Part shown: positions 25,216-38,611 of the stretch, piece after piece | How the letters are laid out: each line of letters opens with the position of its first letter | How positions within the stretch are numbered: the stretch's first letter is position 1 | DNA from: an uncultured beta proteobacterium | Lineage (GTDB): Bacteria; Pseudomonadota; Gammaproteobacteria; Burkholderiales; Burkholderiaceae_B | Reading direction: 5' to 3' | DNA: 38,745 nucleotides | Assembly (NCBI GenBank): GCA_903894155.1 | Contig: CAITPF010000217.1 | Span: forward strand, 1-38,745 | The notes under the pieces: model-generated | Database searches by the model: none | The model's input: the letters and a program-made list of their open reading frames with translations, nothing else | Told to the model about the DNA's origin: nothing | Position numbers and translations under genes: made by a program

Positions 25216-26445
25216 CTAGATAACACCCTCCTGCTTCAGGCCCTCAAGGTCCTTTTCGGAGTACCCGAACCAGTCACCGTAGACCTGCGCGTTATGTTGC
25301 CCGAGCCCCGGGCTCGAGACGGTCTTGGGGCGGGCGGTTCCGTGAATCCAGAGCGCCGACGTCGGCAGCACGACGCGACCAAGCTCGGCATCCTCAAACC
25401 ACTCCAGCGCGCCTCGCGCATGCATGTGCGGGTCATTCATCACTTCAACCAGATCGCGCACTGGCGCAGCCGGGAACCCGTGCTTTTTACTCAGCGCGAA
25501 AAGCTCCTTGCGCGGGAGCGTGCGCGTCCAGGCCTCGATGAACTCGTCGGTTTCCACCAGATTCTGTACCCGCGCCTTGTTGGTGGAAAACCGAGGGTCA
25601 TCCTTCGCATCCAGCCGGCCCATCGCGGCGAGCAGTGCCTGCCAGTGCGGCTCGGTCACGCAAACGAAGGCGATATGCCCGTCCTTCGCCTCGTAGACGC
25701 TGTATGGAGCCAGCGCAAGGCCGCCATGCCGGTTGCCAACGCGCGGAGGCGGCTTGCCTTCCGACTTGTAGGTAAAGCCCATGTTCGACGCAAGCGTGGG
25801 ATAGGCCGTCTCCAGCATCGAGACTTCGACGAGACGACCAACGCCCGTGCGCGTGCGATCGAACAGCGCGGTGATGATGCCGGCGTACAGGTGCACACCG
25901 CTGAGAAAATCGACGATCGACGCGCCCGCGCGCATCGGAGGCCCGTCGGGCGTGCCGGTCACGCTCATGATGCCGGAGGCTGCCTGGATCGTGACATCCA
26001 TCGCCAGGTTGTCGCGATCCGGGCCGGAGATTCCGTAACCCGTGCCGGTTCCGTAGATAAGACGCGGGTTGATTTCATGTAGGACATCCCACCCCACGCC
26101 AAGACGATCCATGACACCTGGCGCGAAGTTTTCCACCAGGATATCGGCGCGGCGGATCATCTCCTTGAAGAGCTCCTTGCCACGCGGCGATTTCAGGTTG
26201 AGCGTGATCCCGCGCTTGTTGGTGTTGAGCATGGCCATCGGCAGGGAAGCGCCGCCGCTGACTTTCGCGCGAATGCGCGACGGCTCGCCGTCGACCGGCT
26301 CGATCTTGATGACATCAGCGCCCGCCTTGGCCATCAGGAAGGTAGCGTACGGCCCCTGGTAGATCTGGGTGAGGTCAATGACCGTGATGCCCGTCAAAGG
26401 GCCGGCATCGACCGGTGTCGTCGTGGTAGTGGCTGATTGCGCCAT
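25216..26445 (-). CDS. Class III CoA-transferase (CaiB/BaiF family)
   Basis: This 409-residue enzyme moves CoA between carboxylates. The N-terminal Rossmann part has LTGITVIDLTQIYQGPYATF near 17-36 and GADVIKIEPVDGEPSR near 42-57. The probable catalytic Asp that forms the aspartyl-CoA intermediate is about D179 in ASIVDFLSGVHLYAG. The frame is open to 26466, but ATG 26445 has a strong GGGAGGGG site 7 nt upstream. It lies between the acyl-CoA dehydrogenase and TctC genes on the same strand, so it probably activates the imported acid to its CoA thioester for oxidation (inference). The stop codon is shared with the left edge of the TctC remnant. Confidence 0.93.
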   Translation of the reverse strand: MAQSATTTTTPVDAGPLTGITVIDLTQIYQGPYATFLMAKAGADVIKIEPVDGEPSRIRAKVSGGASLPMAMLNTNKRGITLNLKSPRGKELFKEMIRRADILVENFAPGVMDRLGVGWDVLHEINPRLIYGTGTGYGISGPDRDNLAMDVTIQAASGIMSVTGTPDGPPMRAGASIVDFLSGVHLYAGIITALFDRTRTGVGRLVEVSMLETAYPTLASNMGFTYKSEGKPPPRVGNRHGGLALAPYSVYEAKDGHIAFVCVTEPHWQALLAAMGRLDAKDDPRFSTNKARVQNLVETDEFIEAWTRTLPRKELFALSKKHGFPAAPVRDLVEVMNDPHMHARGALEWFEDAELGRVVLPTSALWIHGTARPKTVSSPGLGQHNAQVYGDWFGYSEKDLEGLKQEGVI

Positions 26446-26498
26446 GTGGGTTCCCCTCCCGTTCAATGGTGGTCATCGCACACGGCGCGCCGGACCGC

Positions 26499-26553: not shown

Positions 26554-27732
26554 TTACTTGGCGTCCTTCAGGACTTTGCGGGCAATTGCCATCATGTGCA
26601 CTTCTGTCGGGCCTTCGTACACCCGCATGACGCGAACACGCTGCGCCATCAGATGCAGGGGCAACTCTTTGGTCACTCCCATCGCACCGAAGGTCTGCAT
26701 GGCGTGGTCAATGATTTCCGAGGCCATTTCGGTGGCGTAAACCTTGATCATCGAGGCTTCGTTGCGCACATCCTTGCCCTCGTCCTGCTTGCGGGCGGCG
26801 TCCATCACCATCAGCCGGCACGCATGCATCTTCATGGCGGCATCAGCAATCCACCACTGGATCGCCTGGCGGTCGGCAAGCTTCTGGCCGAACGTCACGC
26901 GCTGCTTGGCGTGCTCCACCATCATTTGCAGGGCCCGGCGGCACATGCCAAGGCACCAGGCGCCGATCTGCAGGCGTCGCACGATCAGCCGAAGCTGCAT
27001 CGGGGCAAAGCCGCCACCGATCTCGCCAAGCAGCTGCTTGCCGGGAATGCGGCAATCCTCAAGCACGAGTTCGTAAGTGCGATGTCCTGCCATCATGGGG
27101 ATCTCGCGCAGGATTTCGAGCCCTTTGGTTCCCTTGTCGATGATGAATGCCGTGACGCCCTCGTGGCGCTTTCCATCGCCGGTGCGCGCCATGACGATGA
27201 TGAAATCGGCCGCCGGCACGCGGCTCGCCCAGATCTTGCGGCCATTGATCACCCAGTCGTCACCGTCGCGTTCGGCGCGCGTGATCATGGCGGACGGATC
27301 ACCACCCGCGCCCGGCTCGGAAATCGCGATGGCAGCCTTCATTTCCCCTCGGGCATAGGGCTCCAGGTATTTCTTGCGCTGCTCCTCGGTGGCGACTGCC
27401 AGCAGCATGTGCATGTTGGGCGAATCAGGCGGAAACACGAATGGGACAACGGTGCGGCCGAGCTCTTCGTTGATGGCCATCCAGGTTTCGGCATTGAGGT
27501 TTGCGCCGCCGAGCTCTTCGGGCGCATCCAGGGCCCAGAGGCCGAGCTCTCTGCACTTTTCCAGCAGCGGTGCTTCTTCCTCAGGGGAGAGCTTGAGGGC
27601 CTCGCCCTTGGCCTCGCGCGCAAGGATCGCAGGTTCCAGAGGCATGAGTTCCTGGTCGACGAATTTCGCGACTAGATCCGTGATCATCCGGGCTTCATCC
27701 ATGGCGTCGTTCGCCTGGTCTTGTGCTGCCAT
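26554..27732 (-). CDS. Acyl-CoA dehydrogenase
   Basis: This 392-residue FAD flavoenzyme introduces a 2,3-double bond into an acyl-CoA. Motifs in order are AIAISEPGAGGDPSAMITRA near 134-153 (FAD and substrate loop), GRKIWASRVPAADF near 165-178, QRVTFGQKLADRQAIQW near 270-286 and VYEGPTEVHMMAIARKVL at the C-terminus, whose Glu373 is the probable catalytic base. The YEGPTEVH form resembles the ACAD10/11 and FadE-like groups. The frame is open to 27873, but ATG 27732 has GGAG 7 nt upstream and fits the family length. It heads the minus-strand unit and is divergent from the UGSC fusion gene. Confidence 0.94.
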   Translation of the reverse strand: MAAQDQANDAMDEARMITDLVAKFVDQELMPLEPAILAREAKGEALKLSPEEEAPLLEKCRELGLWALDAPEELGGANLNAETWMAINEELGRTVVPFVFPPDSPNMHMLLAVATEEQRKKYLEPYARGEMKAAIAISEPGAGGDPSAMITRAERDGDDWVINGRKIWASRVPAADFIIVMARTGDGKRHEGVTAFIIDKGTKGLEILREIPMMAGHRTYELVLEDCRIPGKQLLGEIGGGFAPMQLRLIVRRLQIGAWCLGMCRRALQMMVEHAKQRVTFGQKLADRQAIQWWIADAAMKMHACRLMVMDAARKQDEGKDVRNEASMIKVYATEMASEIIDHAMQTFGAMGVTKELPLHLMAQRVRVMRVYEGPTEVHMMAIARKVLKDAK

Positions 27733-27852
27733 ACCGTTCTCCATAGTGGTCGTGCCGTATCCGGAACGCTGTTCGTCGTGTTCGCAAACAACAATGATCA
27801 TACCGTGCGGCGGGACTGCGGCGCAGACCTCCGCCCCCGCCTGAGCGAACTC

Positions 27853-27881
27853 TTGTCCTGCCGGTTGCGGCAATCTATGAT
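27853..27881 (+). promoter_or_regulatory. Candidate sigma-70 promoter of the selenoprotein operon
   Basis: TTGTCC (27853-27858) and TATGAT (27876-27881) are separated by exactly 17 bp, matching the consensus at 4 of 6 and 5 of 6 positions. The start site near 27888 would give a leader of about 77 nt before ATG 27965, which has GGGAG 8 nt upstream. Confidence 0.55.
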
Positions 27882-27964: not shown

Positions 27965-29689
27965 ATGACAGCACCGCAGTCCGATGGTCACTTCGACGTG
28001 CTCTGGCCGCGCAGCCCGCTGCAGGTCAAGGGCAAGACCCTGGCCCGCCGGCTCGACAGCCTCGAAGGAAAGACAGTCGCCCAGCTTTGGGATTTCCTGT
28101 TTCGCGGCGACAAAGTATTCGAAGCGCTCGAGGAAGGCCTCAAGGCACGCGTCCCGGGCGTGAAGTTCATCAACTGGAAAGAGTTCGGCAATACCCACGG
28201 CGCCGACGAACGCAAGATCCTCGCAGAGCTGCCGCAACGGCTCAAGTCGCTGGGGGTCGACGCCGTCATCTCAGGGATGGGGTGCTGAGGGAGCTGCACG
28301 CCCGCCGTGTTGCGGGCGAGTGCAGTGTGCGAAGCGGCCGGTATCCCGACGTCTTCGCTGGTGTGTGAGGGGTTCATTCGCCAGGCCGCAGCGACTTCGG
28401 TCGGTCTGGGCTTGCCAAGCATGCCCGTGGCGCTGGTTCCCGGCCACCCGGGGGTGCAGGATGACGCCACGCTGCGTAAGAACATGCTGGAAGTCACGAC
28501 CGGCCGCGTGATCGAGAACCTGACGCGCGGGGGCGGCACGGGCGGCGCACATGCCGAGCCCGGCCCGCGCGAAATCGTCTTTAGCGGAGGCTTTGACGCG
28601 GTCAATCAGTACTTCATCGACAAGGAATGGAGCGATGGATTGCCGATCGTGCCGCCCACGATGGCGAAGATCGAGCAGTTTCTTCGCTATACCGAACGCA
28701 GCCCGGACGAGATACTCGGGGTGGCGCTGCCCGACAATCGCGCGGCCACGGTCTGGAGCGTCGCCGTCAACGGCGTCATGGCCGGATGCCGCCCCGAATA
28801 CATGCCGATCCTCGTCGCACTCGTCGAGGCGATGGTCGATCCGGAGTACGGCGTCGAGCACAGCGGCAACACGCCAGGCGGCGAAACGCTGATCATCCTG
28901 AACGGCCCCATCATCAAGCAACTGGGGTTCAACTACACCGACAGCGTGCTGCGCGACGGCTTTCAGCCCAACACATCGGTCGGCCGCTTCTGGCGCCTGT
29001 ACCTGCGCAACGTGGCCGGGTTCCTGCTGCACAAGACGGACAAAGCGACGTTTGGCAACACGTGGCGGGTGGTGGCTGCCGAGAACGAGGACGTCCTGGC
29101 GGCCATCGGATGGGAACCCACGAGCGCGGAACACGGGTTCACGCGCGGCGAGAACACGGTCACGATCGCGCGATACACCGGCAGCAACCTGATCGCCTCG
29201 GTCTCGGGCAGCACGCCCGAAATGATGATGCCGATCCTCGCCGACGCGATCGTGCGCCAGCATTCCTGGCAGATCACGTTCACCATGGGTGCGGCGTACG
29301 GTGCGCTGCGCCCGCTGGTGCTGCTCAGCCCGATCCTGGCCGAAACGATCGCTCGCGCCGGCTGGAGCAAACAGGACGTCAAGCAGTACCTGTTCGAGCA
29401 TGCGCGCGTGCGTGCGCGGGATTTCGAACACATGCTGCGGGTCTGGGTGGAGAAACCGATCTGGAACCTGGCCGAAGAGGAGCAGGCGGGGCGCATTCCC
29501 CACGTGTTCCATGAATCGGACGATCCGGACCGCATGGTGCCGATTGTCACGACGGCGGATCTCTTCATGATCGGGGTAACAGGCGACCCGGGGCGAACCA
29601 ACGCGCTCGTGTTTGCGCACAACGGGAGGCTAGGATGGCCCACATCGAAGAAGATCAACCTGCCCGCCAACTGGGAGTTCGGCGCTTGA
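27965..29689 (+). CDS. UGSC-family selenoprotein fused to UGSC-L domain (TGA at 28286-28288 = Sec)
   Basis: This is one 574-residue protein read through an in-frame TGA as selenocysteine 108. The frame is open for 107 codons, meets TGA in GMGC-Sec-GSCTPA, and continues for 466 codons. The UGSC domain (1 to about 195) has LDSLEGKTVAQLWDF near 30-44 and AAGIPTSSLVCEGF after the Sec motif. The second domain (about 200-574) begins YFIDKEWSDGLPIVPPT and has VNGVMAGCRPEYMP; it matches the free UGSC-L proteins at 31362 and 34058. A Cys stands next to Sec (CUGSC), and a strong hairpin follows the TGA. The enzyme is probably a cytoplasmic redox or thiol enzyme; its reaction is unknown. A TGA-as-stop reading would wrongly give a 107-residue and a 460-residue gene. 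Confidence 0.93.
28286..28325 (+). promoter_or_regulatory. Sec codon and SECIS-like stem-loop 1
   Basis: After the TGA (28286-28288), CTGCACGCCCGC (28294-28305) pairs with GCGGGC (28312-28317) and GTGCAG (28320-28325), with a GA bulge on the 3' side. This gives two stacked 6-bp helices. The apical loop CGTGTT begins 17 nt after the TGA, inside the range for bacterial SECIS elements that recruit SelB. Confidence 0.8.
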
Positions 29690-30657
29690 AGCGGTTCGTG
29701 ACGATTGCGTGGGCGCTTCTTGCCCTCGCCTCGCTGCTGCCGGCCAGCGCGCAAGCGCAGGCCGGCGACTATCCGAACCGGTTCATCAAGATGGTCGTTC
29801 TGTTTGGCCCGGGCGGCGCGAGCGATGTCGCCGCGCGCTTTTTTGGCACAAAAATCGAACCGGCGCTCGGCCAGCAACTCGTGGTCGAAAACCGCACCGG
29901 GGCCGGAGGCACAGTCGGCGTGATGGCGGTCAAGAACGCCCCGGCGGACGGCTACACCATCCTGGTGGCGACCAACACGCCGATGTCGATCAACCCGATC
30001 ACCGAGAAGGATCTGCCCTACGATCCGACTCGCGATTTCAAACCCATCTCGGGGATGATCAAGGTGCAGAACGTTCTGCTGGTGGCGGCGGACTCGCCAA
30101 TCAAATCACTGTCGGACATGGTGAGCATGGCCAAAACGCGCGCCAAGCCCGTGACAGTCGGCACATTCTCGATCGGGCACCAGATGACGACCGAGTGGCT
30201 TGCCGGCGTTGCCGGATTCAAGTTCACCAATGTCCCGTACAAGAGCGGCGGGGACATCCTCAACAACCTCATCGGCGGCGAAATCGACTTGGGTTCCGTC
30301 GACCTGCCTTCTGCCGCCGCCCTCATCAAGGCAGGCAAGGTTCGTGCACTGGCAACAACGGGCGAGAAGCGTCACCCACTGTACGCCGACGTGCCCACCG
30401 TCAGCGAAACATATCCCGACTACGTGACGTACTCGTGGAGCTCCCTCTACGTGCGTCGCGAAACGCCAGAGGCCGCCACACGCAAGCTCATCGATGCAGT
30501 GAAGGCTGCCTTGAGCACGCCCGAGGCCGCCGAGTTCGCGACGCGCGCGAGCGGCGAGTTGATGCCGCTGGATCCCGCGCAAATGGAAGCGATGCAGATC
30601 GCCGAACTCAAGCGGTTCTCGGCGATTGCGCGCGCCGCTGGCATACAGCCAAAATAG
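29686..30657 (+). CDS. Tripartite tricarboxylate transporter binding protein (Bug/TctC family)
   Basis: This ~323-residue periplasmic receptor is encoded directly after the UGSC fusion. The signal peptide (KRFVTIAWALLALASLLPAS) precedes the mature YPNRFIKMVVLFGPGGASD; VVENRTGAGGTVGVMAVKN and DGYTILVATN follow. Two starts are plausible: TTG 29686, which overlaps the previous stop (TTGA) with GGGAG 8 nt upstream and gives a normal signal peptide, or ATG 29635 with GGGAGG upstream, adding 17 mainly polar residues inside the coding end of the fusion gene. No TctAB is adjacent. The coupling suggests it delivers the substrate of the selenoprotein (inference). Confidence 0.92.
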   Translation: MKRFVTIAWALLALASLLPASAQAQAGDYPNRFIKMVVLFGPGGASDVAARFFGTKIEPALGQQLVVENRTGAGGTVGVMAVKNAPADGYTILVATNTPMSINPITEKDLPYDPTRDFKPISGMIKVQNVLLVAADSPIKSLSDMVSMAKTRAKPVTVGTFSIGHQMTTEWLAGVAGFKFTNVPYKSGGDILNNLIGGEIDLGSVDLPSAAALIKAGKVRALATTGEKRHPLYADVPTVSETYPDYVTYSWSSLYVRRETPEAATRKLIDAVKAALSTPEAAEFATRASGELMPLDPAQMEAMQIAELKRFSAIARAAGIQPK

Positions 30658-30707: not shown

Positions 30708-31310
30708 ATGAACGACCAGAGAGCAATCCCGACAGGCCGACTTGCGGTTCTGCACCCGGGCGTGGAAGCGGCGGACGCTGCCGATATCAGGGCGGCGCGC
30801 TCGGATGGCTCCAACCCGTCACGACGCATCGGGCTGGCGCCCAGGCTCGCGACGCTTGCGGGCAAGCGCCTTGCGCTGCTCGACAATAACAAAGTCAATG
30901 CGCGCGAGTTGCTCCATGCGTTCGCCGAGCGCCTGCAGCGGGATTACGGCATCGGCGAAATACGCGCATGGCGCAAGCCAACCTCGGCCGCGCCCGCCCC
31001 CTTCATGGATGAAATCCGGCAATGGATGCCGGACCTGCTGTTCTCCGCCTCTGGCGACTGAGGGTCATGCTCGTCGTGGAGTGTCCACGACTCGCTGACG
31101 ATCGAAGCGCTGGGGATCCCGACCGTGACGTTTGCCACGCATCCGTTCCGGGGGATCGTCACCGCGCGTGCACAGGCGTTCGGGTTGCCCGACTTGCCCG
31201 TGATCTACATTGAACATCCGCTCATGACGCGCAGCGCGGAGGAAATTGCCGCCATCGCCGACGAGCGCGCGGCGCAAGTCGCCGATGCCCTTCTTGGCCG
31301 GGAGCCCTGA
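30708..31310 (+). CDS. UGSC-family selenoprotein, stand-alone (TGA at 31059-31061 = Sec)
   Basis: This is a 200-residue protein read through TGA as Sec118. The upstream half has LATLAGKRLALLDNNKVNAR near 48-67 and ends LLFSASGD; the motif is GD-Sec-GSCSSWSVHD, and the downstream half runs LTIEALGIPTVTFATHPF to a TGA stop at 31308-31310. Both halves are in the same frame and both resemble the other two UGSC proteins. The start has GGAGGGG 4-10 nt upstream. A 7-bp hairpin follows the Sec codon. It lies 50 bp after TctC and 51 bp before its UGSC-L partner. Its reaction is not known; the UxxC motif suggests redox chemistry. Confidence 0.93.
31059..31091 (+). promoter_or_regulatory. Sec codon and SECIS-like stem-loop 2
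   Basis: GTCGTGG (31073-31079) and CCACGAC (31085-31091) form a perfect 7-bp stem with loop AGTGT. The loop begins 18 nt after the TGA at 31059-31061, nearly the same distance as in the other two UGSC genes. Confidence 0.8.
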
Positions 31311-31361: not shown

Positions 31362-32405
31362 ATGACCGAAAAGCGCGCGACCCTGCTGCACGTGAATGAT
31401 GATCCTGCCGCGCTGCAGGATTATTTCGAGCGGGAGGGATGGACCGATGGCCTGCCGATCGTGCCGCCGACGCCCGCGCTCGTGGAGGAGATGGTGCGCG
31501 CAAGCGGGCTGGCTCCGGATGCGCCGGTGGCTCCCGTCGCCCCCTCCTTCGCCTCGGCGAGCGTCGAAAAGGTGGCGATCAACGCCGTCATGGCAGGCTG
31601 CCGGCCCGACTACATGCCTGTCGTACTCGCGGCCGTGCGCGCCATTGCGCAGCCCGAGTTCAATCTTGCGGGCGTTCAGGCGACCACGCACCCTGTGGCG
31701 CCGCTGATCATGGTCAACGGCCCGATTCGCGAGCGGATCGGGCTCAATTGCGCGGGCAACGTGCTCGGGCAGGGATTTCGGGCCAACGCAACCATCGGGC
31801 GCGCCCTGCGCCTGGTGATGATGAACATCGGCCAGGGCATCCCCGGCAAGTCAGACATGGCCACCCACGGGACGCCCTGCAAGTTCACCTACTGCGGGGG
31901 CGAGAACGAGGAGCGCAGCCCGTGGGCCCCGTATCACGTCGAGCACGGGATGCACCCTGACGAGAGCAGCGTGCTGGTGCACGCGGCAGAGGCGCCGCAC
32001 AACGTGAACGATCATGCCAGCCGCAATGCAGACGAGCTGCTGCTGATGATCGCCGAGGTCATGATGTCGGTGGGCGCCAACAATCTCAGTTCGGGCGGCG
32101 AGATGCTGATCGTGATCGGGCCGGAACACGCAGCAATGCTCGCGCGCGACGGCCTGGGCAAGGACGACGTCAAGCGCGAGCTTCACCGGCGAACCCGCAT
32201 CGCGCTCGAGCGCATCAGCGCTGGAAATCGCGAGTGGTACAAGACCAAGCGACCGACGTTCAATGTGGCGCCTGACACGACCCACATTCCCTATCTGGAT
32301 GATCCATCGCAAATCCGGATCATGGTGTCGGGCGGTCAGGGCCTGCATTCACTGGTGATCCCAAGCTTCGGGATCTCTCGGTGCATCCTGCGAAAGATCG
32401 ATTGA
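31362..32405 (+). CDS. UGSC-L partner protein (separate form)
   Basis: This 347-residue protein matches the C-terminal domain of the UGSC fusion and the protein encoded at 34058-35107. Conserved stretches are YFEREGWTDGLPIVPPT near 21-37, VAINAVMAGCRPDYMPVVLA near 70-89, NGPIRERIGLNCAGNVLGQG near 119-138, and GTPCKFTYCGGENEE near 166-180, with cysteines in all but the first. No signal peptide is seen, so it should be cytoplasmic. GGGAG precedes the start by 9 nt. It follows the stand-alone selenoprotein by 51 bp. I recognise the family by its repetition here but know no established function; it probably forms a complex with the selenoprotein (supported by the fusion). Confidence 0.85.
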   Translation: MTEKRATLLHVNDDPAALQDYFEREGWTDGLPIVPPTPALVEEMVRASGLAPDAPVAPVAPSFASASVEKVAINAVMAGCRPDYMPVVLAAVRAIAQPEFNLAGVQATTHPVAPLIMVNGPIRERIGLNCAGNVLGQGFRANATIGRALRLVMMNIGQGIPGKSDMATHGTPCKFTYCGGENEERSPWAPYHVEHGMHPDESSVLVHAAEAPHNVNDHASRNADELLLMIAEVMMSVGANNLSSGGEMLIVIGPEHAAMLARDGLGKDDVKRELHRRTRIALERISAGNREWYKTKRPTFNVAPDTTHIPYLDDPSQIRIMVSGGQGLHSLVIPSFGISRCILRKID

Positions 32406-32458
32406 GCGCCGCGCCACAGAGTTGCCGGACGATGAACATCACAGCGAGGAGACAAACC

Positions 32459-33433
32459 ATGGCAGGTTTCACGATGCGGGCGCTGGTCGCTTTTGGCCTG
32501 GCACTGGGAATTGCGCAGGCTTGGGCGGCTGACGGGAAATATCCCGAACGCCCGGTCAAGATCATCGTGGCCTTCCAGGCCGGGCAGGCAACCGACCAGG
32601 CTGCCAGGATCTTTGCGCAAAAACTGACCGAGATGTACGGGCAAAGCTTCTACGTCGAGAACCGCCCGGGCGCTGCGAGCATTATCGGCACAGAGCTCGC
32701 GGCCAAGGCCGCGCCCGACGGGTACACCCTGTTCATGGGATCGTCGGGCAGCCTCGCGGTCAACCCGGGCCTGTACCGCAAGCTGCCGTACGATCCGATC
32801 AAGGATTTCGTGCCGATCTCGCAGATGCTGATCGTGCCGTTCTTTCTGGTGGTCACGCCCGAGTTCCCGGCCACAAACCTCAAGGAACTCGTCACCTACC
32901 TGAAAGCGCACCCAGGCGAGGTTGATTTCGCCAGTGCCGGCAGCGGAGCCAGCAATCACCTCTCGATGGAGCTGTTCATGAGCTCGACCGGCGTGCAGAT
33001 GGCGCATATCCCCTACAAGAGCTCGCCGGCTGCGGTCACCGACCTGCTCGGAGGACGCATTCCCATCATGTTCGATACTGGCCCGGTGCTGCTGCCCTAC
33101 GTCAAGGCGGGGAAATTGCGCGCCATCGCAGTCGGCAGCGCAAACCGGCAGACTGCGACGCCAGATTTGCCGACGGTTGCGCAATCCGGGTTTCCCGGCT
33201 TCGAAGCGGTTGGCTGGGCCGGGCTTGTCGCGCCGGCGGGCACACCAAAGGCCATCGTCGATCAGCTGAGCGCTGCGGTGCGCAAAATCGCCAGTGAGCC
33301 CGGATTTCGCGACAAGCTGATCGGCGCCGAGCTCGTGGCGACATCGCCCGGGGAATACGCGGACTACATCAAATCCGAAGGCCGCAAGTGGTCACAGGTG
33401 GTGAAACAATCCGGGGCGCAAATGCTGGACTAG
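32459..33433 (+). CDS. Tripartite tricarboxylate transporter binding protein (Bug/TctC family)
   Basis: This 324-residue periplasmic receptor starts at ATG 32459 behind GAGGAGA, although the frame is open into the previous gene. The signal peptide (MRALVAFGLALGIAQAWA) is followed by YPERPVKIIVAFQAGQATD, VENRPGAASIIGTELAAKA and DGYTLFMGSSG, all family hallmarks; VAPAGTPKAIVDQL lies near the C-terminus. It is the last gene of the plus-strand selenoprotein operon and meets the minus-strand UGSC gene head-on after 48 bp. No TctAB is adjacent. Confidence 0.93.
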   Translation: MAGFTMRALVAFGLALGIAQAWAADGKYPERPVKIIVAFQAGQATDQAARIFAQKLTEMYGQSFYVENRPGAASIIGTELAAKAAPDGYTLFMGSSGSLAVNPGLYRKLPYDPIKDFVPISQMLIVPFFLVVTPEFPATNLKELVTYLKAHPGEVDFASAGSGASNHLSMELFMSSTGVQMAHIPYKSSPAAVTDLLGGRIPIMFDTGPVLLPYVKAGKLRAIAVGSANRQTATPDLPTVAQSGFPGFEAVGWAGLVAPAGTPKAIVDQLSAAVRKIASEPGFRDKLIGAELVATSPGEYADYIKSEGRKWSQVVKQSGAQMLD

Positions 33434-33481: not shown

Positions 33482-34012
33482 TCAGCCCTCGCGCCGGGTC
33501 AGCAACTCGACGATGCGGGGCGCAACGTCGGCTGCCTTCTGGCGCAGCATGGCGTCGTCGTTATTGGCAACCGGATGCGGGATCATCACGAAAGGATAGT
33601 CGGGCAAGCCATTGAGGCTTGAGACGATCTTTGCGCTTCTCTCGAACCGGTCGGTCATGATTCCGACGGCGGGAATGCCAAGGCGTTCGGCTGCAACGGC
33701 ATCGTGCAAACTGCACGACGAGCAGCTCCCTCAGTCGCCTATCGCAGAGAGAATGACATCGGCTCCGCTGATCGAAGCAAGCATTTCAGGCGACACCGGA
33801 CGCGTCGCGTCGGCCTTGCGCACGCGCAGGAATTCCCGCACGCCATAGTCCTTCTTGAGGATTTCAGCGAGGAAATCAAACAGGCGCTCGGTGCCGATTT
33901 TGGCGTTGTCGATCATGCCGACCACCGCCCCTTCAAGCGACGACAAGGCAGGCGCCATCCGCAACGCCTCACCGCTTGCGTCCACACGGGGATCGAGAAT
34001 TTTCATTGTCAT
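33482..34012 (-). CDS. UGSC-family selenoprotein, stand-alone (TGA at 33731-33733 = Sec)
   Basis: This is a 176-residue protein read through TGA as Sec94. Upstream are LSSLEGAVVGMIDNAKIGTE and GADVILSAIGD; the motif is GD-Sec-GSCSSCSLHD, giving UxxCxxC, and then AAERLGIPAVGIMTDRFERS and PHPVANNDD follow. ATG 34012 is chosen because AGGAG lies 8 nt upstream; an ATG two codons later and a GTG two codons earlier are in frame. A hairpin follows the TGA. It lies 45 bp after its UGSC-L partner and is the last gene of the minus-strand operon that starts at 38604. Function unknown. Confidence 0.93.
33690..33733 (-). promoter_or_regulatory. Sec codon and SECIS-like stem-loop 3
   Basis: On the minus strand, after TGA (33733-33731), CGTCGTGC (33720-33713) pairs with GCACGATG (33707-33700), 8 bp with one G-U pair, around loop AGTTT, which begins 18 nt after the TGA. 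An outer helix GCTGC/GCAGC (33726-33722 with 33694-33690) can extend it across an internal loop. Confidence 0.8.
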
Positions 34013-34057: not shown

Positions 34058-35107
34058 CTACAGATCAATGGGCATGGTCACGGCGAGCGACTTCTTGCCG
34101 TACCAGGGCGGGATGATGACGCCGAACCCACCCGCAGGGCCGCCGGCGGCGACGACAAGAAGATCGTCGGGCGTGCGCAACGCGCGATAGATTTTGTCTT
34201 CGTCCTTGCGGCCCGCCACGGCGGCCTTGCCGACGTCGCGCCACTCGCGGCGAGCGACCCGCGCCTTCTCGAAGATATATTCGCGGATCATTTTCTTGTC
34301 CCAGCCCGCGGCGATGAAGATCTGGCGATGCTGCTTGGCAACCACCATGGCATAGGGGCCCTCCCAGATCGAATAGGTCAGCATGTTCGAACGCATGGCC
34401 GCCGCGTAGGTGTCGAGTATCTCCTGGGGATTCAGTGTCCACTCGTTCATGATCTGGTGAGGAGACTCGACGGCCATGACCGTCACGGCAGAAGTGCCAG
34501 GGGCAATGCCGCGCTCGACCGACAAGGGCAACCAGGTGTTGTCCTCCTCGTCTTCTGCGACGCAGAACGTGAATTTGCCGGGGTGCCCAAGGGTCGAGCG
34601 ATCGAGTTGCCCCGGGATCCCGCCCAGCACATTCAACAGGAAAAGCCGTACCGTGCGACCGACCGTCGCGTTCGCGCGGCTCGCGTTGGCCAGCGCATTG
34701 TGCGTGCAGTTAAAACCAAGCAGGCCGCGCACCGGGCCATTGATGATGACCAGGGGGGCGCTTCCGCCGGTGCTGGCAGTGCAGCCGTGCATGCCGAACT
34801 CGGGCGCGCACATCGCCTTGATGATTGCGATGACAACGGGCATGTACTCCGGCAAGCATCCCGCCATGACAGCCGCGATCGCGACTTTTTCGGCGCTGAT
34901 GCTTCGGCGACGCACCGGCTCGACGCCGATGAGGTCGTCGGCCTTACACCGACCCGCGCGCAGGAAGGCGCGCACTGCCTCCTCGGTGGGCGGGACGATC
35001 GGCAGCCCGTCTGTCCAGCCGTTGCGCTGGTACAGCTCGTTGGCAGCGACTGCGTCCGCGACTTCATAGGTGGCGCTCGACAAGGCGAGATCGGTATCGG
35101 TCATCAT
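34058..35107 (-). CDS. UGSC-L partner protein (separate form)
   Basis: This 349-residue protein belongs to the same family as the one at 31362 and the C-terminal domain of the UGSC fusion. Conserved stretches are YQRNGWTDGLPIVPPT near 26-41, VAIAAVMAGCLPEYMPVVIA near 74-93, NGPVRGLLGFNCTHNALANA near 123-142, ATVGRTVRLFLLNVLGGIPG near 147-166 and GKFTFCVAEDEEDN near 176-189. No signal peptide is seen. ATG 35107 overlaps the stop of the binding-protein gene (ATGA), implying coupled translation; ATG 35104 is possible too. The selenoprotein gene follows 45 bp later. Function unknown; it likely acts with the adjacent selenoprotein. Confidence 0.85.
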   Translation of the reverse strand: MMTDTDLALSSATYEVADAVAANELYQRNGWTDGLPIVPPTEEAVRAFLRAGRCKADDLIGVEPVRRRSISAEKVAIAAVMAGCLPEYMPVVIAIIKAMCAPEFGMHGCTASTGGSAPLVIINGPVRGLLGFNCTHNALANASRANATVGRTVRLFLLNVLGGIPGQLDRSTLGHPGKFTFCVAEDEEDNTWLPLSVERGIAPGTSAVTVMAVESPHQIMNEWTLNPQEILDTYAAAMRSNMLTYSIWEGPYAMVVAKQHRQIFIAAGWDKKMIREYIFEKARVARREWRDVGKAAVAGRKDEDKIYRALRTPDDLLVVAAGGPAGGFGVIIPPWYGKKSLAVTMPIDL

Positions 35108-36141
35108 GGTTTCTTCACGGTAGCGAGGGCTCGCTCGACGAATCGGTTTGTGTAGGTATCATCGATCCGGATCCTGGCAGCGGCAACTTCAGGGTTGAAG
35201 GTCTGTAACATTTTAAGTGTATTTTCGACGCCATCGCGAGGAAACATTCCATCGGGCGAAATGCCGTCCCGTACTTTCTCGAACGCCGCGAGATAGAGTG
35301 CGCGGTTACGCTCCAGGTAGCGCGGCGGCACGACCCGGGCGACGTCCTCGGGCGTGGCTTTCTGGATCCAGAGCAGCGCGCGGACCATCGCGTCCGTGAG
35401 CGCCTGAATAGTCTTCGGGTTCTTATCGATAAACTCGCGCGTCGAGTACAGGGTTGCAGCCGGCATCGGCGAGCCGAACAGATCCAGCGTGCCCTTGGTC
35501 GTGCGCGTATCGAGAACGATCGTTACGTCGCCGCTCATCTCGAGTTCGGTCATGACGGGATCGATATTGGAAATCGCTTCGATCTGGCCCGTGCGCACGG
35601 CGGTCAACGCGACCGACGAGGCACCCACGCCGATGAAGGAGACATCCGCCTTGCTCATCCCGTTCTTGTCGAGCAGGTACTCGACGAAGTTCTGCGTCCC
35701 TGAGCCGGGTGCGGTCACGCCGATCTTCATGCCCTTGAGATCCTTCGGCGACTTGTAGTTCGCCGCCTTTGATTTCACGATCCCAAAGGCATAGCCGGGA
35801 TAGCGCCCCTGCGCGACGAAAGCGATGATGTCCTGCCCTTTGGGCTGTACGGTGATCGTATGCTCATAGGCGCCCGAAGCCACATCGATGCTGCCACCCA
35901 CCAGCGCCTGCATCGTCTTGGATCCGCCCTGAAAGTCGCTGATCGTAACGTCCAGGCCCGCATCCTTGAAGTAGCCGAGTTGCTCGGTGATTGTCAGGGG
36001 CAGGTAGTAGAGCGCGTCCTTGCCCCCGACACCGATGTGCACCTTCGTCAGCGGGGCCCGTGCCTGCGCGGCGGCAGGCAGCGCAAACGCACAACCCGCA
36101 ACGGCAAGCCATGCTGAAAAAATCCTGGTCAGTATCTTCAT
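35104..36141 (-). CDS. ABC transporter binding protein, SsuA/NMT1-like
   Basis: This 345-residue periplasmic receptor has a signal peptide of about 27 residues (AWLAVAGCAFALPAAAQA). The mature part shows IGVGGKDALYYLPLTITEQLGYFKDAGLDV, split by the usual linker, with QGGSKTMQALVGGSIDVASG near 71-90 and KGMKIGVTAPGSGTQNFVEYLL near 136-157, typical of the NMT1/SsuA group that binds sulfonates, pyrimidine precursors or related anions. No permease or ATPase gene is present, so it is an orphan here. It overlaps the UGSC-L start by 4 bp, which ties ligand capture closely to the selenoprotein pair. Confidence 0.9.
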   Translation of the reverse strand: MKILTRIFSAWLAVAGCAFALPAAAQARAPLTKVHIGVGGKDALYYLPLTITEQLGYFKDAGLDVTISDFQGGSKTMQALVGGSIDVASGAYEHTITVQPKGQDIIAFVAQGRYPGYAFGIVKSKAANYKSPKDLKGMKIGVTAPGSGTQNFVEYLLDKNGMSKADVSFIGVGASSVALTAVRTGQIEAISNIDPVMTELEMSGDVTIVLDTRTTKGTLDLFGSPMPAATLYSTREFIDKNPKTIQALTDAMVRALLWIQKATPEDVARVVPPRYLERNRALYLAAFEKVRDGISPDGMFPRDGVENTLKMLQTFNPEVAAARIRIDDTYTNRFVERALATVKKP

Positions 36142-36223: not shown

Positions 36224-37381
36224 TCAGATCACCTTCTTTGCCCTCAGCCTGGCAATGGTTTGCGCATCGCGCCCGAGTCGCCCGAGAATTTCATCGGTGT
36301 CGGCGCCCTTCTCGGCCATTCGGCACGAGGGCTGGCCCGGCTCCTCGCGAAAGTGGATGGGCGTGCCGAGATTTTCGACGCCGTCAGCGCCGCGCACGAT
36401 CATGCCGCGCTCGCGCAGCACGGGCAGATCCCAGGCCTCCTTCATGTTCAGCACGGGGGCGTAGCAAATGCCAAGCGTGCCGAGATAGCTGTCCCACTCG
36501 TCGCGGGTGCGGGTCGCGAACGTGGCGGCGAGAAAGTCCTTCGCGGGCTGCTGTGCCGGGCCCCACGGCTGGCGGCAGACTTCAACGAGGTCGGGACGGC
36601 CCAGCGCATTGAGGAGAATTTCAACGAAGTTCATTTCCGCACCCGACAGCACGATGTGCTTGCCGTCCTTCGTGCGGTAGACGTTGTAGAACGCGGCACC
36701 GCCATGCAAGCGCTCGACCGACAGATCCGGGGCCTCGCCCTTGTCGATCACGGTGCTCAGGATATGGGGCGTCCACGAGATGAGCGAATCGGTCATCGCC
36801 ATGTCGACGAAATCACCCTTCCCGGTCTTGTCGCGACGCAAGAGTGCCATCAGGATTCCGATCAGCGCCGCAGAACCGAGCGCGACATCGGCCACCGGGA
36901 GCGACGGAAGGCAGGGCTCGCGCCCATCAACCTGCCCAAGGCTCAGGATGCCGGTGAGCGCCTGCGCGCCGGCGTCGTGGGATGGATTCTGCGCCAGGGG
37001 CCCCTTCTGGCCGAACGCGGACAGCGCACAGTACACAATGCCCGGTGCGCGCTCGCGAATCTGGTCGTAGCCGATACCGATCCGATCTGCAACGCCTGGC
37101 CTGAAGGATTCGATGATGACATCGGCCTGGCTCGCCAGATCGTAAAAAATCTCGAGCCCTTCCGGATCCTTAAGGTTGAGCACAACCGACTTCTTGCCAC
37201 GTTGCGTATTGCGGAAGTAGGCCGGAAATCCCTTGATCGACGGCCCGAGCCGCCGAGTGGGCTCGCCCTCCTGCATTTCGATCTTGATGACTTCGGCGCC
37301 GTGGTCGGCCATCGTCAGGCCGATCCAGGGACCGGGCAGGAAACGGGACAAATCAATAACGCGGATACCTTCGAGCTTCAA
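36224..37381 (-). CDS. Class III CoA-transferase/racemase (CaiB/BaiF family)
   Basis: This 385-residue protein shows LEGIRVIDLSRFLPGPWIG at 3-21 and GAEVIKIEMQEGEPTRRLG at 28-46. His135 (in PSHDAGAQALTG) and Asp165 (in LPVADVALGS) are 30 residues apart, like His126/Asp156 of Mycobacterium alpha-methylacyl-CoA racemase, so it may be a racemase of 2-methylacyl-CoAs and not a transferase. This is a comparison from memory. It lies 17 bp after the first CoA-transferase gene of the same operon and 82 bp before the binding-protein gene. Confidence 0.9.
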   Translation of the reverse strand: MKLEGIRVIDLSRFLPGPWIGLTMADHGAEVIKIEMQEGEPTRRLGPSIKGFPAYFRNTQRGKKSVVLNLKDPEGLEIFYDLASQADVIIESFRPGVADRIGIGYDQIRERAPGIVYCALSAFGQKGPLAQNPSHDAGAQALTGILSLGQVDGREPCLPSLPVADVALGSAALIGILMALLRRDKTGKGDFVDMAMTDSLISWTPHILSTVIDKGEAPDLSVERLHGGAAFYNVYRTKDGKHIVLSGAEMNFVEILLNALGRPDLVEVCRQPWGPAQQPAKDFLAATFATRTRDEWDSYLGTLGICYAPVLNMKEAWDLPVLRERGMIVRGADGVENLGTPIHFREEPGQPSCRMAEKGADTDEILGRLGRDAQTIARLRAKKVI

Positions 37382-37398
37382 GTCGATTCCTTAAAAAA

Positions 37399-38604
37399 TC
37401 AGAGCGCCAACCCGCCGGCTATAAGTTCATCGGCTGCGAAACCGAGCCGCCCAAGCAGAATTTCACGGTTGTCTGCGCCAAGCGCAGGGCCGGGGGCATC
37501 GATGTGGGCGGGAGTGCGCGAGAGCAGTCCTATCGCATTCTGCATATGCAGCTCGCAGCCGAGCTCTTCGTCGTGGACGCCGACGATACTGCCCCGGGCT
37601 CGCAGATGCGGATCGTTGTAAACATCGGCCACGCTGCAGATGGGGCCAGCCGCAGCCTGGTGGACTTCCAGACGCGCGAGGATCTCGGCCTGGTCGAACC
37701 CGAGAAATGCCTGCTGAAGTGTGTCTTCCAGGACATCGATATTTTCGCGGCGCAGCAGATTGCTCGCGAAACGCGGATCGTGTCCGACCACCGGGATGTC
37801 GAGTGCCTCGCACAGACGCTCGAATATCGACTGAGACCCGGCGGAGATCGCCACCCATTTTTCGTCACGCGTGCGAAACGCATTGCGCGGAGAAACGATC
37901 GGCAGGCGGCTTCCGGTGCGCTCCTGCACGAGCCCGAGCTGGTCGTAATCGAGCACGTGCGGTCCCAGCATCGTGAGGAGCGTTTCGTAGATCGCCAGAT
38001 CGACCACCTGGCCGCGGCCGGTGCGATCGCGCTCGCGCAGAGCCGCAAGCGTCAGGAACGCCCCCGAAAGACCTGTTGTCGTGTCAGCCACCGCGAAACT
38101 GGGCAATAACGGCGGCCGGTCGGCGTAGCCGTTCGCATAGGCGAACCCGGTCGAGGCTTCCGCGAGTGTTCCGAAGCCGGGACGACTGCTGTTGGGGCCC
38201 GTCTGGCCGTATCCCGAAATCCGCACCAGCACAATGCCAGGATTGATCGCGGCGAGATCGTCAAATCCAAGGCCCCAGGACTCGAGCGTACCCGGGCGGA
38301 AGCTCTCGATCACGACATCCGCATCCTGCACCAGGCGCCGGACGATCTCGACACCCAGCGGCGTACGCAAATCCGCGGTTACAGAACGTTTGTTGCGATT
38401 GAGCATCTTGTGATACAGGCCCACGCCATTCTTGCGGTTGCCCCAACCGCGCAGCCCGTCGCCTGCGCCCGGCTGCTCGACCTTGACGACCTCGGCGCCG
38501 TGGTCGCCGAGCATCATGCCGATCATGGGGCCGGCGATCAGGCTAGCCAGTTCGACGACCCGGATTCCCGCAAGCGATCGTTCGTAATATGGTACAGTGT
38601 TCAT
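37399..38604 (-). CDS. Class III CoA-transferase (CaiB/BaiF family)
   Basis: This 401-residue protein is the first gene of the minus-strand selenoprotein operon. LAGIRVVELASLIAGPMIGM is at 11-30, GAEVVKVEQPGAGDGLRGWG at 36-55 and the likely catalytic Asp174 in SFAVADTTTGLSGAF. Unlike its neighbour it has no His in the segment 30 residues before that Asp, which favours true CoA transfer. ATG 38604 is used; a GTG two codons upstream is in frame. The start lies only 29 bp from the divergent IclR start and about 8 nt from a -10 box, so the mRNA may be nearly leaderless. Confidence 0.92.
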   Translation of the reverse strand: MNTVPYYERSLAGIRVVELASLIAGPMIGMMLGDHGAEVVKVEQPGAGDGLRGWGNRKNGVGLYHKMLNRNKRSVTADLRTPLGVEIVRRLVQDADVVIESFRPGTLESWGLGFDDLAAINPGIVLVRISGYGQTGPNSSRPGFGTLAEASTGFAYANGYADRPPLLPSFAVADTTTGLSGAFLTLAALRERDRTGRGQVVDLAIYETLLTMLGPHVLDYDQLGLVQERTGSRLPIVSPRNAFRTRDEKWVAISAGSQSIFERLCEALDIPVVGHDPRFASNLLRRENIDVLEDTLQQAFLGFDQAEILARLEVHQAAAGPICSVADVYNDPHLRARGSIVGVHDEELGCELHMQNAIGLLSRTPAHIDAPGPALGADNREILLGRLGFAADELIAGGLAL

Positions 38605-38611
38605 AATCACG

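Follow-up and report, generated by a model that had tools for sequence, protein, structure and literature searches.

The window, that is, the whole stretch of 38,745 nucleotides analysed here, comes from an uncultured beta proteobacterium and carries a gene in which a putative selenocysteine (Sec) protein of the UGSC family is fused to a partner domain. The same window holds two free-standing UGSC genes with partner genes of their own, and several solute-binding proteins. The features are as follows.

25216-26466, minus strand: class III CoA-transferase (PF02515, 2.6e-114)
26554-27873, minus strand: acyl-CoA dehydrogenase, upstream of the fusion (PF00441, 2.7e-40)
27965-29689, plus strand: UGSC-partner fusion gene, predicted 574 aa with Sec108; its own TGA stop at 29687-29689
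27995-28495, plus strand: UGSC (Sec) domain, residues 11-177 (PF24696, 3.3e-27); alternating beta-alpha and PurE/Rossmann-like in the model
28283-28297, plus strand: putative active-site motif Cys107-Sec108-Gly-Ser-Cys111, with the Sec TGA at 28286-28288
28293-28326, plus strand: SECIS-like hairpin, inner stem 28300-28305/28312-28317, loop 28306-28311
28565-29686, plus strand: partner domain ('Unknown_1'-like), with Cys275 (28787-28789), N336, R341, N349, E373 and W383
29635-30657, plus strand: TctC-type solute-binding protein (PF03401, 3e-54); ORF as listed, the true start probably further in
30708-31310, plus strand: free-standing UGSC selenoprotein gene with DUGSC, TGA(Sec) at 31059-31061 (PF24696, 1.8e-41)
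31362-32405, plus strand: free-standing partner gene of the 30708-31310 UGSC gene
32381-33433, plus strand: TctC-type solute-binding protein (PF03401, 1.5e-76)
33482-34012, minus strand: second free-standing UGSC selenoprotein gene with DUGSC, TGA(Sec) at 33731-33733
34058-35107, minus strand: partner gene of the 33482-34012 UGSC gene
35104-36141, minus strand: NMT1/SsuA-like solute-binding protein beside the minus-strand pair (PF09084, 3e-24; TIGR01728, 1.6e-29, under its cut-off)

In addition, two more ORFs on the minus strand at 36224-38610 resemble, by eye, CaiB-type CoA-transferases. The frame 27965-29689 starts at an ATG with a good ribosome site (GGGAGAACTCAGC-ATG), and its sole interruption is the TGA at 28286-28288, which gives CUGSC at residues 107-111 when read as Sec. 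The original prediction of a single 574-residue UGSC selenoprotein fused to its partner is borne out by this otherwise open frame, by Cys homologues and by the presence of selA, selB, selC and selD. Both halves were also said to match the two other UGSC genes of the window; both genes are real and have these two parts as separate genes, the free-standing partner genes being 28-32% identical to the fused partner. With 96.1 bits against the Pfam UGSC family PF24696 (gathering cut-off 25), the fusion is a member of that family, while against the NCBIfam equivalog NF041046 it reaches 46.1 bits, under the required 125, and is therefore a divergent member. It has the domain and the Sec-Gly-X-Cys site of the UGSC family (PF24696, NF041046), but differs by the joined partner, by Cys instead of Asp before Sec and by its NF041046 score below the cut-off. 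The full-length AlphaFold2 model has a pLDDT of 93.1 and a pTM of 0.92. On the whole, the sequence supports the view that the UGSC-partner fusion is one Sec-containing chain.

Reading of the in-frame TGA

The original prediction called for selA, selB, selC and selD in the genome and for homologues with Cys at the TGA position, and both are found. In the own genome, selA, selB and the tRNA-Sec gene (anticodon UCA) stand side by side on contig C141 and selD is on contig C125, with selA being found once only. Cys homologues occur in Curtobacterium and Nocardioides (L059, L082), and in 8 of the 10 plasmid loci opened (10 of 24 matching records; the other 2 have TGA); the natural Cys versions include a fused annotated protein of 545 aa in Variovorax boronicumulans. 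The Curtobacterium and Nocardioides genes are the only two with Cys among 108 distinct sequences (own six included), of which 105 have TGA, one of these being a spurious weak match of 6.6 bits, and 1 has Gly. With TGA at this place in so many sequences, among them all six UGSC matches of the own genome with one in-frame TGA each, the pattern can hardly be put down to chance. We also looked for SelA in 25 genomes: it does not reach the cut-off in either of the two Cys genomes and is present in 17 of the other 23. The remaining 6 of the 25 are MAGs with TGA-type UGSC but no SelA over the cut-off, which counts against the explanation favoured below, as does the contamination of the own MAG (5.57%). 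A genome-wide reassignment of TGA is ruled out, as the fusion itself stops at TGA; in the Chloroflexi loci, too, TGA is the terminator of 14 of the 47 long ORFs that have a full stop codon, which counts against reassignment.

Just behind the TGA lies the SECIS-like hairpin. Among the 62 distinct sequences of the fusion class, the inner 5 bp of the stem are intact in 61, and the outer pair is G-C in 49, A-T in 5 and G-T in 2, the remaining 6 being unpaired there. Arg in the stem is CGG in 62 of 62 (background elsewhere in the same genes 0.27), Leu is TTG in 41 of 45 (background 0.13) and Pro is CCC or CCT in 62 of 62 (background 0.40), all of these being counts over related sequences and hence over trials that are not independent. 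A second class of 12 sequences, with a different peptide, has another stem at the same place in 12 of 12, and here Ser is AGT in 12 of 12 (background 0.12). The locked Arg and Leu codons are missing from the two Cys relatives of the fusion class, which have CGC for Arg, and CTG or no residue for Leu. Shuffling of synonymous codons gives a modest excess (mean z -0.56 versus -0.17 in control windows; p 1.6e-5 over sequences that are not independent). The folding energy of the hairpin in the single sequence is not unusual (z -0.5), pooled covariation over all hairpin classes is uninformative, the hairpins differing in register among classes, and an Rfam scan of the window at gathering scores gives no match. 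The locked codons and intact stems indicate that the hairpin right behind the UGA is under selection.

If the TGA were a true stop, it would end a 107-residue protein, and a second gene would run from the downstream GTG at 28307, where an ORF of 460 aa does exist mechanically. Such a start would, however, cut the conserved domain; moreover, the Cys versions read straight through, the codons behind the TGA are locked and the genome has the full Sec machinery. On the last three points we reject the true-stop reading, to which we give hardly any probability. It is near certain, judging from the sequence, that the UGA at 28286 is read as Sec, aided by the hairpin just behind it.

Several further loci are described here for the record. 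A second selB in the own genome (contig C388, L101:1486-4359) has a TrxB-like gene next to it, and a further UGSC fusion lies 5-7 kb away. The Neorhizobium plasmid Cys case reads Cys-Ser-Thr-Cys, not Cys-Gly-X-Cys, and has a broken reading frame. The conjugative IncP plasmid p2-T1 of Acidovorax sp. T1 bears a TGA-type UGSC with partner (L138:7401-8942) and transposase genes nearby; the CDS given there stops right at the Sec TGA, and the PLSDB gene table, which is incomplete, has no entry for the partner. In a Lachnospiraceae MAG, a fused paralogue (L057:2761-4425) has neither Sec nor the following Cys (GGASG), with a TGA-type copy and a TrxB-like gene alongside, and SelA was not found in that MAG.

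The two domains of the fusion

The Cys-Sec pair had been thought distinctive, the two short UGSC relatives in the window having Asp before Sec. The latter is confirmed (DUGSC in both), but the former does not hold. In the alignment of 74 fused rows (73 of 87 fused candidates and the window protein, with 4 own-genome rows, incomplete or odd ones, L028 and L032 left out), the residue before Sec is Cys in only 34, Ala in 22, and Gly, Asp, Phe, Ser or Met in the rest. On the tree the Cys-Sec form needs at least 6 changes, and near relatives of the window protein that retain Sec also have another residue before it. The count and the repeated changes rule out Cys-Sec as a signature of the family. 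The near-invariant pair is Sec-Gly-X-Cys rather than Cys-Sec: 73 of the 74 fused rows have Sec or Cys at 108 together with Cys111.

In the model of the Sec domain, strands and helices alternate, and VIA aligns 123-126 residues with PurE and other Rossmann-like chains at Z 9.9 and rmsd 2.9-3.2; many generic Rossmann-like chains are tied with PurE, which counts against the favoured explanation. A thioredoxin-like fold is guessed for UGSC in the passages of PMC2398784 available. As the models have it, the domain looks PurE/Rossmann-like rather than thioredoxin-like, with the proviso that a family absent from the VIA listing is not thereby excluded.

The Sec domain also shows a likeness to selenoprotein B of the glycine/sarcosine/betaine/proline reductases (GrdB/PrdB; PF07355, TIGR04483, TIGR01917). 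At E 0.01 or better, 17 of 74 members match PrdB and 6 of 74 match GrdB in NCBIfam, the best at 3.3e-5 and all far under the curated cut-offs. Profile comparison by hhalign of the Sec domain with the GrdB/PrdB Sec region gives 96.4% over 101 columns, with Sec on Sec, and 93.9% with the full fusion instead. The fusion thus shares the Sec-bearing UGxC region with GrdB/PrdB, but lacks their N-terminal GRDB part; PF07355 does not match the fusion at E 1 or better, and the full-length GRDB architecture is absent. That the kinship is confined to a Sec region of about 100 residues counts against the favoured explanation. No GrdB/PrdB chain is among the PDB matches listed, which excludes nothing. From these comparisons we infer that the UGSC Sec domain is distantly related to the Sec-bearing C-terminal region of GrdB/PrdB. 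As far as the passages of PMC13188914 go, those Sec-domain relatives whose chemistry is known act as reductases.

The GrdB side of the profile comparison is based on eight GRDB-family genes (L105-L109, L118-L120). In 8 of 8, a TGA stands directly behind the last PF07355 position, so the Sec codon seems to mark the end of the PF07355 model. Short PF07355 matches (L110-L117, L121-L124) also occur in several of these genomes and are PrdB-like, with the in-frame TGA in UPxC (12 of 12 read) as against UGxC in the fusion. They are ruled out as UGSC genes and lend no support to the GrdB/PrdB kinship; by their sequence, these UPxC frames are a further widespread group of predicted selenoproteins beside UGSC.

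As for the partner domain, the AlphaFold2 model has a pLDDT of 94.6, and the alignment contains 97 rows (94 of 98 partner domains and three window proteins; the corresponding UGSC-domain alignment holds 51 of 94 domains and three window proteins). All 97 rows have N336, R341, N349, E373, W383 and G540, and Cys275 is present in 96 of them and in 9 of 10 plasmid partners. Ala stands in place of Cys275 in Curtobacterium pusillum (L059:7383-9098) and Neorhizobium galegae (L143), in each case in a copy with Cys for Sec; the 8 remaining Cys-type partners retain Cys275. This gives a hint that residue 275 and Sec may work together. No family in Pfam or NCBIfam matches the partner, and profile comparison shows no relation to GrdB or to the pyruvoyl-subunit family PF09338, which itself has 0 matches in the own genome (G000) and in the Chloroflexi MAG G003, both assemblies being MAGs. 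The top Foldseek matches are class I fumarases and are weak (E 6.6e-4, TM about 0.2). VIA gives Z 4.6 or less for fumarase/Toblerone-fold candidates (fumarase 4.5) and no confident fold match, and a profile search of solved structures gives three weak Hsp104/ClpB matches (best E 0.0055), all within residues 413-542, which we regard as fortuitous. The UGSC/Unknown_1 fusion described from Global Ocean Sampling in 2008 likewise consists of UGSC and a conserved function-less domain with a conserved Cys, according to the passages of PMC2398784 available; Unknown_1 is presumably the same domain as the partner here.

Neighbourhoods and copy number

A partner-domain scan of the GTDB genome collection gave 535 relatives, and the best 79 loci were kept; fused forms are over-represented among these, because the partner query was itself led by the fused type. 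UGSC is found in 78 of the 79 partner loci, the exception being L093, where the partner starts 25 bases from the contig end, and it lies beside the partner in every one of the 10 plasmid loci opened, so that the two halves may be regarded as one unit. There are 35 separate partner matches (own loci included). For 17 of them a separate UGSC gene lies no more than 400 bases away, for 3 the distance to such a gene is 0.7-1 kb, and 11 stand behind a fusion; of the remaining four, 2 are own-gene tails seen twice, 1 precedes a fusion at the edge of its locus and 1 is at the end of a contig. In L040, L044, L047, L048 and L081, a second separate partner gene comes directly after the fusion and is followed by a TrxB-like gene.

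We then compared near with far ORFs, with 123 near ORFs scanned (129 of 163 neighbours were listed, and 6 were removed manually, of which four were partner or locus-edge ORFs and two were dropped on no good ground). TctC proteins make up 26 of 123 near and 9 of 110 far ORFs (p 0.004), and family-5 solute-binding proteins (SBP_bac_5) 18 of 123 and 2 of 110 (p 0.0003). SelA shows no enrichment near UGSC (3 of 123 near, 2 of 110 far). TrxB-like flavoproteins occur at 14 of the 79 loci and, within the stretches fetched from plasmids, at 6 of 10. Their enrichment, with 8 of 123 near and at most 1 of 110 far ORFs (p 0.03), is modest and counts against the favoured explanation; so does the lack of a TrxB-like gene in the window, the own genome having one on another contig (C388). 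Thioredoxin reductase TIGR01292 is the best NCBIfam match for the three neighbouring flavoproteins scanned, with 216-320 bits, under its cut-off of 343 bits, which makes them a divergent TrxB-like branch. A trxB gene is annotated near natural Cys versions of UGSC in Variovorax sp. SRS16 and in Roseovarius sp. THAF8, the order in Roseovarius being partner-UGSC-trxB.

The most notable genome in copy number is the Chloroflexi MAG G003 (JACPQD01, 5 Mb; loci L061, L062, L065, L072, L085, L090, L091, L096 and L147-L206), with at least 150 UGSC genes, 146 of them with in-frame TGA among the matches listed (150 of 208 candidates scored). Of the 60 genes fetched, including the four without TGA, 55 read UGxC, and no pair is more than 80% identical. 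The largest predicted bacterial selenoproteome has 63 genes and MAGs can mix strains, according to the part of a 2026 review available (PMC13188914). If the MAG represents one genome, G003 would exceed this published record more than twofold. A literature search found no paper joining UGSC, selenoprotein and Chloroflexi.

Proposed function

The original prediction took UGSC to be catalogued without a settled function, and this agrees with the 2026 review, which, in the part seen, lists it among largely uncharacterised selenoproteins (PMC13188914). The family is also among the commonest selenoprotein families in Global Ocean Sampling, above all in non-marine samples, in the passages of PMC2398784 available. 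Sequence data support the Sec reading, the two-domain unit, the conserved residues and the neighbours. Considering the Sec evidence, the kinship with reductase selenoprotein B, the two-half unit, and the TrxB-like and solute-binding neighbours, we think it rather probable that the fusion is a Sec-dependent reductase which is supplied with electrons by TrxB and acts on organic substrates taken up by the cell. The N-terminal UGSC domain would bear the Sec-Gly-Ser-Cys site, and the C-terminal partner, with Cys275, N336, R341, N349, E373 and W383, would bind and activate the substrate. The selenolate may attack the small imported organic substrate and cleave or reduce a bond, a step suggested by the kinship between the Sec domain and that of glycine/proline reductase selenoprotein B. 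Cys111 would then resolve the selenenyl intermediate by forming a Se-S bond, and the TrxB-like flavoprotein would restore the enzyme with NADPH. Each copy in a genome might serve a different substrate, brought by its own solute-binding protein. The type of reaction is a guess guided by the glycine and proline reductases.

The same Sec-X-X-Cys site and TrxB-like neighbours would also suit an enzyme of thiol/selenol redox maintenance or detoxification (a peroxidase, or a disulfide or metalloid reductase) without a catabolic substrate, and the literature, in the passages available, groups UGSC with thioredoxin-fold redox proteins (PMC2398784, PMC13188914). We consider such a role unlikely, since the model alternates beta and alpha like PurE/Rossmann-like folds, the kinship is to substrate-specific reductases, the partner has an invariant polar cluster, copies stand beside solute-binding proteins, and the at least 150 divergent copies in one MAG are not needed for housekeeping. 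Less probable still, in our opinion, is a net non-redox reaction (lyase, isomerase or transferase), with Sec as the nucleophile and TrxB merely keeping it reduced. Some neighbourhoods do contain annotated members of the adenylosuccinate lyase family, of the isocitrate lyase/PEP mutase family, or HMG-CoA lyase, and the weak top matches of the partner are fumarases (E 6.6e-4, TM 0.2); the fumarase match, however, is not confirmed by VIA (Z 4.5), and the Sec-domain relatives of known chemistry are reductases (PMC13188914, as far as available).

To extend the reading as a substrate reductase, the UGSC-partner enzymes might form a large unrecognised superfamily of substrate-specific, NADPH/TrxB-driven relatives of glycine and proline reductases in bacteria and haloarchaea. 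They would be Cys enzymes where Sec is lacking, with a new catalytic domain in place of the pyruvoyl subunit, and with about 150 copies in some Chloroflexi feeding on dissolved organic matter. We put this wider view forward tentatively, as a possibility somewhat short of even. Its expansion in Chloroflexi may be likened to that of the reductive dehalogenases, which form multiplied paralogue families.

Already in print are the UGSC family and, since 2008, the UGSC/Unknown_1 fusion (PMC2398784, PMC13188914). The UGSC passages of PMC2398784, PMC13188914, PMC9312934 and PMC7539508 contain no link of UGSC to GrdB/PrdB or TrxB. UGSC is, however, named together with PrdB and glycine reductase in at least 3 papers, and with thioredoxin reductase and selenocysteine in 6. 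Set against the passages available, what appears to be new is the kinship with GrdB/PrdB, the fold, the conservation of the partner, the TrxB-like and uptake neighbours and the number of copies. Tying UGSC to a partner, to selenoprotein B, to TrxB-like reductases and to uptake proteins would turn an orphan into an assayable enzyme, and with Cys versions in cultured bacteria and haloarchaea it could be studied without first making a selenoprotein. Provided that the number of copies mirrors the range of substrates, at least 146 such genes in one genome would alter the view of how much selenium a bacterium can invest in catabolism. In the own order of the window genome, the spread is patchy, with 14 of 120 genomes matching and 13 of them over the cut-off, and the copy numbers (G025, G030, G080, G125 and others) reach in some cases at least 17 to 26, with 25 for G025 among the matches listed.
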